A DNA stretch of 64,000 bases from NCBI GenBank assembly GCA_036172455.1, contig JAXKVY010000002.1, forward strand, positions 434,001 to 498,000. Direction: 5' to 3'. This stretch comes from Candidatus Izemoplasma sp. GTDB lineage: Bacteria; Bacillota_I; Bacilli_A; Izemoplasmatales; Izemoplasmataceae. Under the pieces are notes generated by a model, which searched no databases, had not been told where the DNA came from, and saw only the letters and a list, made by a program, of their open reading frames with translations. This document shows positions 27,625 through 31,986 of this stretch, piece after piece; within the stretch, counting starts at the first letter, position 1; each line of letters begins with the position of its first letter. The position numbers and the translations under genes are program-made.

Positions 27625-27641
27625 ACGCGTAGGTGATAATT

Positions 27642-28016
27642 ATGAAAATTTTAGCATGTGTTGGTAGCAAACGCAAAAACGGAAACACACACACATTAGT
27701 AAAACAAGCAATGGAACAATTTGATTCTAGTAACAGCATTGATATCGTAACATTATCTGATTATAACTTTGAAGGATGTACAGGTTGCGAGGGCTGTGCT
27801 ATGACCAATGAATGTGTTATCCAAGATGATATGCAGATTCTTTATGGTAAGATAGATGCAGCTGATTTACTAATCCTAGCCTCTCCCACTTACTATTATA
27901 ATATTACAGCTGACATTTTTACATTTATTTAATAAAACTGATGCGAAGGAAAGTGATCAAGCACAACAACAAATAAATCACTTTGTCACAGAAATCAAGT
28001 CATCTATAAAAAAATA
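27642..28016 (+). pseudogene. NADPH-dependent FMN reductase / flavodoxin-like protein, truncated by deletion
   Basis: The ATG at 27642 has AGGTGATAATT upstream. The first 97 codons read MKILACVGSKRKNGNTHTLV (flavin phosphate loop), then a cysteine segment CTGCEGCAMTNECVIQDDM, and ADLLILASPTYYYNITADIFTFI, then a double stop. Family members run to about 180-200 residues. In another frame right after the stops, a plausible C-terminal end appears (FNKTDAKESDQAQQQINHF to a stop at 28014-28016), so an internal segment of about 60 codons is missing together with a frameshift. Probably inactive. Confidence 0.75.
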
Positions 28017-28074
28017 AATTATATAATAATTTAGCCCAACAGTGGGATATATATTGTTTGATTCAACGGCATTA

Positions 28075-28097
28075 TGTGATATCATATAAGTGTCACA
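28075..28097. promoter_or_regulatory. inverted repeat before the BusR-like regulator, possible operator
   Basis: TGTGA (28075-28079) and TCACA (28093-28097) flank 13 bases containing TATCAT, a plausible -10 with TTTGAT 17 bases upstream. It could mediate autoregulation; weak evidence. Confidence 0.4.
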
Positions 28098-28113
28098 AAA
28101 GGAGGATGTCCTG

Positions 28114-28743
28114 TTGAAAGAACCAAAAAATCTAGCTAAACATGTACAGATAGCATATGAAATAGCACAAAAGATAAATCAAAACATATTACAAGAAGGC
28201 GATAAACTACGGGGACGTAATTTAGCTGCAACAGAATACAAAGTCTCCTCAGAAACAGTTCGAAAAGCACTTGCGCTCCTTCAACAAAAAGGAGTCGTTA
28301 TTGTTAAAGAACAAAGTGGGGCCTTTGTCTTATCAGTAGAATATGCCAAAGATTTTGTGAAAGCTATCAAGGAAGATATGAAATTATCGAATCATGTGGA
28401 AAACATAAAAGAGTTATTAAAAGAAAACAAAGCAATAACGAAACAAATAGAAAAAGAGTTCCGATTAATTGATCTCACAAAACGCAAGAGTACAACCGAC
28501 TTGCCTTTTGATATTTTTAGTTTTAAAGTGACTAAAAATTGTCAATTGATTGGTAAAACGATGCAAGAATGTGCTTTTTTCCATAATACAGGAGCCACCT
28601 TGTTTGGTATGATTAAAAATAAACAAGTAATTTCTTCTGTTCCTAACTCAACTGTAATCGATGTAGACGATATTTTGTTTTTCTCAGGGGATGAAAAGAA
28701 AAAAGCGAAAACACTTACATATATAAAAGATATTTCTAGTTAA
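28114..28743 (+). CDS. busR: GntR-type regulator with C-terminal RCK_C (TrkA_C) domain, BusR-like
   Basis: 209 residues from a TTG start at 28114, eight bases after AAAGGAGG; an upstream in-frame GTG overlaps that site and is less likely. Residues about 10-75 form a GntR winged helix (AYEIAQKINQNILQEGDKL, then SSETVRKALALLQQKGVV). A linker coiled coil (about 85-125) leads to an RCK_C domain (FSFKVTKNCQLIGKTMQEC to DVDDILFFSGDEKK). This architecture is that of BusR of Streptococcus and Lactococcus, which binds c-di-AMP and represses the glycine betaine transporter. The genes immediately downstream code such a transporter, and a bipartite palindromic site overlaps their promoter. Confidence 0.85.
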   Translation: MKEPKNLAKHVQIAYEIAQKINQNILQEGDKLRGRNLAATEYKVSSETVRKALALLQQKGVVIVKEQSGAFVLSVEYAKDFVKAIKEDMKLSNHVENIKELLKENKAITKQIEKEFRLIDLTKRKSTTDLPFDIFSFKVTKNCQLIGKTMQECAFFHNTGATLFGMIKNKQVISSVPNSTVIDVDDILFFSGDEKKKAKTLTYIKDISS

Positions 28744-28761
28744 GCGCTATATACCTAGAAT

Positions 28762-28782
28762 AAGCCGTTTTCGGCTTTTTTT
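28762..28782 (+). terminator. intrinsic terminator after the BusR-like gene
   Basis: AAGCCG TTTT CGGCTT followed by TTTTT; separates the regulator from the transporter operon. Confidence 0.85.
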
Positions 28783-28809
28783 ACGCGTTTTTTTAAACCA
28801 CCAAAATCA

Positions 28810-28858
28810 TTGATTAACTGACAACTTTATGATAGTATTGTAATTGTCAGTTTGACAA
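28810..28858 (+). promoter_or_regulatory. promoter and bipartite operator of the betaine transporter operon
   Basis: Two similar 15-base elements, TTGATTAACTGACAA (28810-28824) and TTGTCAGTTTGACAA (28844-28858), lie 34 bases apart start to start. AACTGACAA/TTGTCAGTT is also an exact inverted repeat (28816-28824 and 28844-28852). TTGATT (28810-28815), 17 bases, TAGTAT (28833-28838) gives a promoter lying between and over the elements, so a bound tetramer would block transcription, as described for BusR. Confidence 0.7.
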
Positions 28859-28875
28859 GGAGGAGTTTTATACAA

Positions 28876-29835
28876 ATGAAAAAATTATTTTTATTATTAT
28901 CAGCGTTCGTTATTTCGCTTGGATTAAGTGCATGTGGCGGACCCGAAGAAAAAATTATCATGGGCGAAGGAAATTGGAACTCATTCGTTTTTCATAACCA
29001 AGTAGCCAAAATTATTATTGAAGAAGGATATGATTATTCAGTAGATATTGTTCCGGCAGATACTAACGTTTTAATACCTAGTTTAAAAGAGGGCGATGTT
29101 GACATTGCAATGGAAATCTGGAGTGATAACATTCCAACATATGATGAAGATATTAAAAATGGTGCCTACGTTGAGTTAAGTACTAACTTTGATGACAACC
29201 GTCAGGGACTATATATTCCTGCTTATCTTCAAGAAGAATATCCAGAATTAATATCTGTAAGAGATTTACTTGATTATCCAAATTTATTTCCAAATCCTGA
29301 AGGTGGAGATAAAAGTGTTATTTATGGTGGTCCTGAAGGTTGGAGCGCTACAACACACTTACATGACAAGATGGAAGCTTATGGTTTAAATGAAGAATTT
29401 GTGTTTAAAACAATTGATTCAAGTTCAACATTGAATGCAAGTTTGGCTGGAGCATATGCTAATGAAGAACCATGGGTTGGATATAATTGGGAACCAACAT
29501 GGGCTTTAGGTATGTATGATATGGTATTGTTGGAAGATTCTGCTTATAGTGCTGAAGATTTCGAAGCTGGAATAGGTGCTTTCCCAAGTGTTGATGTAAA
29601 TGTTGTTGTCAATACCGAGTTTGCTGATACTTATCCAGAATTAAATACATTCTTAAGCAATTATGAAACAACAAGTGATATCACATCAGAAGCCCTAGCT
29701 TATATGCAAGATAACGATGATGATACTGGTGAGTTAGCAGCAATTTACTTCTTAACAAATTATGAAAACCTATGGAGTGAATGGGTTACTGATGAAGCCT
29801 ATAACAATGTCATGGACTACATTAATAACAAATAA
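28876..29835 (+). CDS. opuAC: glycine betaine-type ABC transporter, substrate-binding lipoprotein
   Basis: 319 residues from the ATG at 28876 with AAGGAGG. Signal peptide and lipobox LSAC (cleavage before Cys20), so it is tethered to the outer face. The mature protein has the OpuAC fold features: aromatic residues in EIWSDN, GPEGWSATTHLH and WVGYNWEPTW that can build the quaternary-amine cage, and GIGAFPSVDVNVVVN. The N-terminal longer reading has no ribosome site. First gene of opuAC-AB-AA; the order is reversed relative to Bacillus opuA. Exact ligand (betaine, proline betaine, carnitine) is inference. Confidence 0.88.
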   Translation: MKKLFLLLSAFVISLGLSACGGPEEKIIMGEGNWNSFVFHNQVAKIIIEEGYDYSVDIVPADTNVLIPSLKEGDVDIAMEIWSDNIPTYDEDIKNGAYVELSTNFDDNRQGLYIPAYLQEEYPELISVRDLLDYPNLFPNPEGGDKSVIYGGPEGWSATTHLHDKMEAYGLNEEFVFKTIDSSSTLNASLAGAYANEEPWVGYNWEPTWALGMYDMVLLEDSAYSAEDFEAGIGAFPSVDVNVVVNTEFADTYPELNTFLSNYETTSDITSEALAYMQDNDDDTGELAAIYFLTNYENLWSEWVTDEAYNNVMDYINNK

Positions 29836-29854
29836 CTAAAAACTACATAATAGA

Positions 29855-29884
29855 AAATGCAACCTTCATAGGGTTGCATTTCTA
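29855..29884 (+). terminator. hairpin between binding-protein and permease genes
   Basis: AAATGCAACC/GGTTGCATTT stem with a weak following T stretch (TTTCTAT). Likely a partial terminator or mRNA-stabilising hairpin that keeps the binding protein in excess over the membrane parts. Confidence 0.65.
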
Positions 29885-29905
29885 TCGATTTAAAGGAGTG
29901 ATTTT

Positions 29906-30763
29906 ATGTTTAATTTTCCAAAAGCCTTAGAATTTTCAATTGCTGGGTTTATTGATGCCATAGTAGATTGGATCCTTACGAATTTAGATGGCCTATTTGA
30001 ATTAATATCGACGATAATTATCTATGTATTTTATTACGTTGAAACATTTTTAAACTTTATACCTTGGTGGGCAATGATTCTTGTTATTATTTATGCAGGA
30101 TATAAACTATATAACTATAAAATGGGTCTCACCTTAGGACTACTATTATTCTTAATAGGCGTTTTTGGGCTGTGGGAAATGATGATTTATACACTAGCAA
30201 TCGTATTGATTTCAGTACTTGTTAGTTTACTTGTCGGGATTCCTACAGGGATATTTATGGCTAAAAGTACACGGGTTGAGAAAATCCTATTACCTATATT
30301 AGATGCCATGCAGACAATGCCCAGTTTTGTATACTTAATACCAGCCGTCATGTTATTTGGTCTTGGTAAAGTACCTGCAGTTTTCGCAACAACAATTTAT
30401 GCTATTCCACCGGTTATTCGTTTAACTTTCTTAGGAATATCAAATGTTGATAAAGAAGTTCGTGAAGCTGGTATGGCGTTTGGATCAACACCATTCCAAC
30501 TATTATTTAAGATAGAATTACCTCAAGCATTATCAACAATAATGACTGGGGTCAACCAAACAACAATGATGGCTATGGCAATGGTTGTTATTTCGTCAAT
30601 GATTGGTGCAGAAGGAATTGGACAAGAAGTACTCGTCGCAATTCGTAACTTAGAAGTTGGACGTGGTTTCCAAGCTGGATTCGCCGTTGTTTTCCTTGCG
30701 ATTTTACTTGATCGCTTATTACAAGGAACAACCAAGATATTACAAGGAGGCGATGAAGTATGA
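29906..30763 (+). CDS. opuAB: glycine betaine-type ABC transporter, permease
   Basis: 285 residues, AAAGGAGTG eight bases before ATG. An amphipathic N-terminal part, then about six or seven membrane helices; the ABC permease signature region includes EAGMAFGSTPFQLLFKIELPQAL (about 190-212, the EAA loop), and EGIGQEVLVAIRNLEVGRGF is typical of ProW/OpuAB. Its stop overlaps the ATPase ATG (ATGA). Confidence 0.92.
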   Translation: MFNFPKALEFSIAGFIDAIVDWILTNLDGLFELISTIIIYVFYYVETFLNFIPWWAMILVIIYAGYKLYNYKMGLTLGLLLFLIGVFGLWEMMIYTLAIVLISVLVSLLVGIPTGIFMAKSTRVEKILLPILDAMQTMPSFVYLIPAVMLFGLGKVPAVFATTIYAIPPVIRLTFLGISNVDKEVREAGMAFGSTPFQLLFKIELPQALSTIMTGVNQTTMMAMAMVVISSMIGAEGIGQEVLVAIRNLEVGRGFQAGFAVVFLAILLDRLLQGTTKILQGGDEV

Positions 30764-31947
30764 AAAAAGTAAAGCGTAAAAACAAAATTGAAGTAGAAAA
30801 CCTACAACTTATATTTGGAAAAGGCAAAGCAAAACAAAAAGCCATTAAAATGATTGAAGATGGTGCCTCTAATGAAGAAATTAGAGAAGAGACAGGATGT
30901 GCGGTTGGTATTAGAAATATTGACCTTAACATTAAAGAAGGCGAACTATTTGTTATTGTTGGACTTAGTGGAAGTGGAAAATCAAGTTTCTTAAGATGTT
31001 TTAATAAACTGAATAATCCAAACCGAGGAGAAATTAGAATTGATGGCGAAAATATCTTATCTTATGATAAAGAACAATTACGTAAACTACGCCGGAATCA
31101 AATCGGAATGGTTTTCCAACACTTTGGTTTACTTAGTCACCGTACAATTTTAGACAATGTTGCTTACGGATTAGAAGTTCAAGGTCTTGATGAAGAAACA
31201 CGCCAAGAAAAAGCTTACGAGGCCAACAAAATTGTTGGACTAGAAGGTTGGGAAGATTACTATCCACACCAATTAAGTGGTGGTATGAAACAACGTGTAG
31301 GGCTCGCTAGAGCCATTGCAACTGAACCTGAAATATTATTAATGGATGAACCCTATAGTGCACTTGACCCACTCATTAGACGCGATATGCAAAATGAGTT
31401 GTTAAATCTTGAAGAGTATATCGATAAAACGATTATCTTTATTACCCATGATATGAACGAAGCATTTAAAATGGGAGATCGGATCGCATTACTTAAAGAT
31501 GGTGAAATCGTTCAAATGGGTAAACCTATGTCATTCTTTGATGATCCAAAAAATGACTATGTTAAAGACTTTATCGCAGATGTTGATAAGGGTCAAGTAT
31601 TAAAAGCTAAACAGGTCATGGACGATGCAGAAATCGACTTTAAAGAAGATGATGACAGAAACGTTGTATTGAAAACACTCGAAAGAGAAAATCTTCAAAT
31701 TGGCTTTGTCGTTGATGATGAAAACAAACTAGTTGGTCGGATATCACTAGAAGATGTTAAGAAATCACGTGCTAAGACCATAAAAAGTCTTATTGAAACT
31801 GATATTCAATCGTTCTATCGCCAACGTTTCATTAAGGAAATCTTACCCCTCGTTGGTGAAACTGAATACTCAGTCCCTATTGTTGATTCAAAGAATCGAC
31901 TTAGAGGAACCATCAACAAAGAAGTTATTATTAACGCATTAATATAA
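30760..31947 (+). CDS. opuAA: glycine betaine-type ABC transporter, ATPase with CBS domains
   Basis: 395 residues. OpuAA/ProV-type N-terminal extension (KIEVENLQLIFGKG...EETGCAVGIRNIDL), Walker A GLSGSGKSS, signature LSGGMKQRVG, Walker B LLMDEPYSALDP, switch His in ITHDMNEA. From about residue 275 two CBS repeats follow (VLKAKQVMDDAEIDF; later YSVPIVDSKNRLRGTINKE). CBS pairs in OpuA-type ATPases sense ionic strength or bind c-di-AMP, so transport could be inhibited by the same ligand that acts on the regulator. Terminator follows. Confidence 0.93.
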   Translation: MKKVKRKNKIEVENLQLIFGKGKAKQKAIKMIEDGASNEEIREETGCAVGIRNIDLNIKEGELFVIVGLSGSGKSSFLRCFNKLNNPNRGEIRIDGENILSYDKEQLRKLRRNQIGMVFQHFGLLSHRTILDNVAYGLEVQGLDEETRQEKAYEANKIVGLEGWEDYYPHQLSGGMKQRVGLARAIATEPEILLMDEPYSALDPLIRRDMQNELLNLEEYIDKTIIFITHDMNEAFKMGDRIALLKDGEIVQMGKPMSFFDDPKNDYVKDFIADVDKGQVLKAKQVMDDAEIDFKEDDDRNVVLKTLERENLQIGFVVDDENKLVGRISLEDVKKSRAKTIKSLIETDIQSFYRQRFIKEILPLVGETEYSVPIVDSKNRLRGTINKEVIINALI

Positions 31948-31953
31948 AAATTT

Positions 31954-31986
31954 AGATACTCAGCTAAACGCTGAGTATCTTTTTTA
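31954..31986 (+). terminator. intrinsic terminator after the betaine transporter operon
   Basis: AGATACTCAGC/GCTGAGTATCT (31954-31980) then TTTTTT; an A-rich left flank may serve the convergent SDR gene too. Confidence 0.88.

Follow-up and report, generated by a model that had tools for sequence, protein, structure and literature searches.

A BusR-type regulator and a predicted operator with 23-bp half-site spacing at a betaine transporter operon of Candidatus Izemoplasma

BusR of Streptococcus agalactiae (structures 7b5t, 7b5y, and 7oz3) recognizes the motif 5'-GAC-N22-GTC-3', with half-sites 22 bp apart at each of the four sites determined by experiment (PMC8517857). The protein has been described as a molecular ruler; the published spacing test consisted only of changes of +5 and -10 bp, both of which prevented binding (PMC8517857). 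In L. lactis, the busR gene lies directly upstream of the betaine operon, whose ABC transporter it represses (PMC5919688). There the permease carries the binding domain as a fusion, and the first account of BusR had it respond to ionic strength (PMC10243994). We analyzed a related locus in a 64,000-nucleotide window of the genome of Candidatus Izemoplasma sp. (contig JAXKVY010000002.1, positions 434,001 to 498,000; coordinates below are those of the window), where the regulator gene adjoins the betaine operon as in L. lactis, whereas in GBS it is located 655 kb from the operon (PMC5919688).

Domain profiles and coordinates agreed with the initial annotation of a GntR-RCK_C regulator gene ahead of opuAC-AB-AA: all four genes are on the plus strand, and those after the regulator encode, in this order, OpuAC, a BPD permease, and a CBS-containing ABC ATPase. 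The regulator gene (28114 to 28743) encodes 209 amino acids with a GntR domain at residues 20 to 80 and a TrkA_C/RCK_C domain at residues 143 to 203 (numbered from GTG 28090), and both profile matches were above the cutoff (PF00392, E = 1.6e-13; PF02080, E = 6.7e-9). Translation likely starts at TTG 28114 rather than at GTG 28090, because an AGGAGG sequence is found at 28100 to 28105 and the relative L013, which is 90% identical, has an ATG start at the equivalent position. A terminator-like hairpin followed by a T run (28762 to 28777) lies downstream of the regulator gene. The first gene of the operon, opuAC (28876 to 29835), encodes a betaine-binding protein of 319 amino acids (PF04069, E = 1e-48) with the lipobox LSAC, which confirmed that the binding protein is a separate lipoprotein encoded first, in contrast to the fused arrangement of L. 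lactis busA. It is followed by opuAB (30763 is its last position, 29906 its first), a permease of 285 amino acids without a fused binding domain that matched PF00528 and choline/betaine permease families, and by opuAA (30760 to 31947), an ATPase of 395 amino acids with a C-terminal CBS region (TIGR01186, above the cutoff). A hairpin between opuAC and opuAB (29854 to 29882) scored as a terminator-like site on the minus strand only, while the terminator-like hairpin at the end of the operon (31954 to 31980) is usable on both strands. The regulator and lipoprotein genes adjoin in 14 of the 18 regulator-bearing genomes of the order, and a separate lipoprotein encoded first is the usual gene order on the window's side of the family. 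Just upstream of the regulator gene, an FMN-reductase gene (27633 to 28017) is present as a remnant of 99 amino acids followed by a short piece of the C terminus; the copy in L013 (1196 to 1789) is intact, with 197 amino acids.

The assignment of the regulator as a BusR-type GntR-RCK_C protein is well supported by both sequence and predicted fold, as the initial annotation had proposed. Its best PDB sequence match was SgaBusR of S. agalactiae (7b5t; E = 3e-20, residues 16 to 212; approximately 28% identity), followed by 7wjg, named S. mutans BusR in the fold search. The AlphaFold model, built from 34 aligned sequences (pLDDT, 87.6), showed a winged helix, one helix at residues 75 to 127, and an RCK_C domain, and in this single-chain model the predicted long helix has 53 residues, a length that matches BusR. 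In a fold search with the model, all 13 best PDB chains were BusR; the RCK_C dimer with bound c-di-AMP (7b5u) could be superposed on the model at 1.4 to 1.6 Å. Full-chain TM-scores were low (0.37 to 0.54), which we attribute to the domains being angled differently around the long helix, and the agreement is thus one of the parts and their order. Six positions of SgaBusR weaken DNA binding when mutated (K36, R38, R53, K54, G70, and G72; PMC8517857); five of them are kept or conservatively replaced in the regulator (K36R, R38, R53, K54, and G72), whereas the wing residue G70 is Q.

As in S. agalactiae, an inverted GAC...GTC element overlies the promoter of the betaine transporter. The promoter, read by eye in a register that is common to the relatives, consists of TTGATT (28810 to 28815) and TAGTAT (28833 to 28838) separated by 17 nucleotides, with TG at 28830 to 28831. 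The conserved element is the inverted repeat AACTGACAA-N19-TTGTCAGTT (28816 to 28852, with 9-bp arms at 28816 to 28824 and 28844 to 28852), and it extends from directly after TTGATT to 14 bases beyond the end of the -10 box. Its left half-site, AACTGACAAC (28816 to 28825, plus strand), contains GAC at 28820 to 28822, and its right half-site, ATTGTCAGTT (28843 to 28852, minus strand), corresponds to GTC at 28846 to 28848, so that the window carries GAC-N23-GTC, with 23 bp between GAC and GTC instead of the 22 bp of SgaBusR. The initial annotation had described two 15-base elements 34 bases apart; these letters exist and share TTG and TGACAA, but the register was wrong and the repeat is inverted rather than direct. 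Read as a direct repeat, the two 15-mers matched at 9 of 15 positions, compared with 12 of 15, including a perfect 9-bp arm, when one of them was reverse-complemented. The relative L013 also ruled out the direct reading: its 37-bp operator differs from that of the window at two inner positions only and the inverted arms are identical letter for letter, whereas the second 15-mer has changed in its outer portion, from TTTGACAA to TTTGACGA.

Across the 1.69-Mb genome, the pattern CTGACAAY-N17-RTTGTMAG is matched perfectly by the window operator alone. A 9-bp inverted repeat with a gap of 12 to 30 bp arose by chance in 1.7% of Markov-shuffled copies of the 132-bp intergenic region, and the repeat by itself is thus modestly significant; it is conservation in other genomes that secures the predicted operator. 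Further targets in the same genome were rejected: inexact matches were about as numerous as those to a backward control pattern, and the one at C7:29940 falls within an open reading frame. The bipartite operator over the promoter that had been proposed was borne out, as a predicted site, by its match to the published motif and by this conservation.

Among 90 genomes of the order, 18 had a BusR-like protein at the thresholds used, as did 34 of the 395 genomes of the class. To compare operator spacing, we examined 26 loci and scored 10-base half-sites there at all spacings between 12 and 35, with weights set by eye from known half-sites and with spacing not forming part of the weights. The window's side of the family contributed 21 betaine-operon sites from 19 genomes, with both operons of G129 and both tandem sites of G146 included and L013 and G061 counted as one. 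A spacing of N23 scored best at 20 of these 21 sites, the exception being G023, where it ranked third. On the SgaBusR side, all eight sites, which came from six genomes, were N22. When loci were shuffled, their top scores had a median of 13.1, with 95% and 99% points of 17.4 and 19.8, and most sites scored close to the 99% point or higher. The lower-scoring sites (G082, G129, G205, G420, and G348 at 16.6 to 17.9 and G023 at 16.3) are also supported by their position.

The left half-site stands directly after the -35 box in N23 promoters, G130 and G348 show the same arrangement in their N22 promoters, and the extra base therefore lies downstream and not between the -35 and -10 boxes. In G146, the second tandem site is N23 although it has no recognizable promoter, and the second betaine operon of G129, in which the ATPase gene comes first, is N23 like the first; the G129 regulator adjoins neither operon and was paired with both by genome. 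Spacing thus tracks the regulator of the genome and not gene order or promoter. Six genomes (G076, G038, G062, G040, G072, and G075) carry a further N23 site at the promoter of the regulator gene itself. However, the sister species G073 and G077 carry N22 at this promoter (L018:1440 and L019:2120) and N23 at the betaine operon, so the 23-bp rule is not absolute on the window's side. Tandem operators, both N23, precede one betaine operon at L036:2335-2410 and recall pAB1 and pAB2 of S. agalactiae. Four loci of genus g9 (L024, L025, L027, and L029) encode family regulators without betaine genes at the locus; no operator was found at these loci, and ABC-permease-like membrane proteins adjoin the regulators.

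A 41-row tree that included BusR proteins placed the window regulator outside the clade of SgaBusR and S. mutans BusR. Regulators with N22 sites formed one side of a single branch (support, 100/98), which was recovered in all 200 bootstrap trees examined; the N22 label of SgaBusR came from the paper and that of S. mutans BusR from kinship, not from a site that was read. Regulators with N23 sites were placed around the N22 clade, and L037 of G129 fell near it with weak support (82/77). One change of spacing is the simplest reading of the tree, which is unrooted, so that the change could have gone in either direction. Lengthening of the coiled-coil was ruled out as the source of the N23 spacing: R53 and A164 are 111 residues apart in the window regulator, in SgaBusR, and in all N22 proteins, and 109, 111, or 112 residues apart in N23 proteins, with 109 in one N23 group. 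Other differences do follow the groups. Wing residue 70 is G in 6 of 7 N22 regulators and R, K, or Q in 17 of 18 N23 regulators, and further separating columns include 137 (P in all N22 regulators) and 180 (G180). These columns are candidates only, since ancestry alone could produce them.

Several components of c-di-AMP signaling are encoded in the genome. A diadenylate cyclase gene was found; the single protein is CdaA-like and scored just below the NCBIfam cutoff (179.4 versus 188.8 bits), and 47 of the 49 family genomes encode the cyclase domain. A GdpP phosphodiesterase and one TrkA/KtrA-like protein with RCK_C are also encoded, whereas the c-di-AMP riboswitch RF00379 gave no match in the genome. 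Compared with S. agalactiae BusR, the pocket of the regulator keeps H160, A164, and T165 but has A in place of N157 and Q in place of G154 and differs in the SPGP loop. The nearest relative of the regulator has Y at pocket position 160, and most of the loci L018 to L028 combine an intact operator with a pocket that has changed further. Because the pocket is only partly conserved, c-di-AMP is a likely rather than a firm ligand of the window regulator.

The initial annotation had also assigned a CBS pair to the ATPase, which was confirmed by PF00571 (E = 4e-9) and by an alignment of OpuAA with L. lactis OpuAA (7ahc; 7ahh is a further structure of this transporter) over residues 9 to 394 that included the whole CBS region (E = 8e-100). 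A lysine-rich stretch occupies the place of the L. lactis ionic-strength motif (K16, R17, and K19; PMC10243994). The CBS regions, however, are only 22% identical (26/117), and the L. lactis protein has extra residues at its C terminus that the window ATPase, which ends with its CBS part, lacks. DRaCALA gave no c-di-AMP binding signal for BusA of GBS (PMC5919688), whereas BusA of L. lactis bound c-di-AMP by cryo-EM, according to a review (PMC10243994), and sequence alone therefore cannot settle binding by these CBS domains.

Taken as a whole, the model that we favor, with a probability of roughly 0.78, is that a BusR-type repressor controls the adjoining betaine operon through the 23-bp-spaced operator with c-di-AMP as the signal. 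High solute or ionic content would raise c-di-AMP, which would bind the RCK_C dimer of the regulator. By analogy with BusR, a regulator tetramer would then grip AACTGACAA-N19-TTGTCAGTT, which begins just past the -35 box and ends near the expected start site; opuAC-AB-AA would be shut off until a fall in c-di-AMP relieved repression. Conservation establishes the operator, and the tetramer, its binding, repression, and the ligand would all follow the BusR precedent. In the window's branch the half-sites lie 23 instead of 22 bp apart, and the protein ruler is of no greater length; that c-di-AMP might inhibit OpuAA as well, acting on the CBS pair as it does in L. lactis OpuA, is a guess. A BusR-type circuit in a lineage where BusR control had not been studied is well supported and adds a little-studied, small-genome branch of Bacillota to those in which betaine uptake is under this control. 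As far as we searched, within the open-license literature, the lineage-wide 23-bp operator is new, though it may already have been described elsewhere.

c-di-AMP might not be the only signal, given that L. lactis BusR binding was first linked with ionic strength (PMC10243994). The same repressor and operator could serve an RCK_C domain that senses ionic strength or another nucleotide, and the loss of N157, G154, and the SPGP loop, the difference at position 160 between the two closest relatives, and the change of TGAT to THGL in related genera with an intact operator all fit such a signal. We nevertheless regard it as unlikely, since A164, T165, and H160 are kept, the genome encodes both the cyclase and GdpP, and polar-rim residues vary among N22 BusR proteins too. 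This comparison draws attention to related genera that retain the operator while their c-di-AMP pocket is altered. The repeat could also belong to another regulator or be a by-product of the promoter, with the adjoining gene controlling something else. This is very improbable: the half-sites fit the published BusR motif, adjoin the regulator gene in most genomes, and recur at the regulator's own promoter (with N23 in the six genomes named above), and the spacing shifts along with the regulator clade.

The meaning of the spacing is less certain. The BusR family may have two operator rulers, the window's lineage preferring 23 bp and the SgaBusR lineage 22 bp after one switch on the tree, with a coiled-coil of no greater length and a setting that resides elsewhere (wing, hinge, or induced DNA bend); we consider the odds for this proposal to be even. 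Alternatively, the 23-bp spacing could be inherited drift that the protein tolerates, and these regulators, perhaps all BusR proteins, would bind 22 and 23 bp alike. The N22 regulator promoters of G073 and G077, the equal or near-equal length of the protein ruler, and a published test restricted to +5 and -10 bp favor tolerance. Against it, free tolerance should yield mixtures over such divergence, but the two sides of the family are almost uniform in spacing, even at the promoterless site of G146 and the reordered operon of G129, and we therefore lean slightly away from this explanation. A natural 1-bp change of spacing together with matching proteins makes the determinant of the ruler testable by domain swaps between N22 and N23 regulators.

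Most diadenylate cyclase (DAC) domains read DGA, whereas the cyclase at L033:1770-2591 reads DGG, and an oxidoreductase-like gene comes after it. In the genome of the window, but outside the window itself (L112:577-3006), GdpP and ribosomal protein L9 share one frame of 809 amino acids, with GdpP PAS, GGDEF, DHH, and DHHA1 domains followed by the N and C domains of L9. Unless it results from a sequence error, this frame is a fusion, and fused GdpP-L9 proteins are annotated elsewhere.
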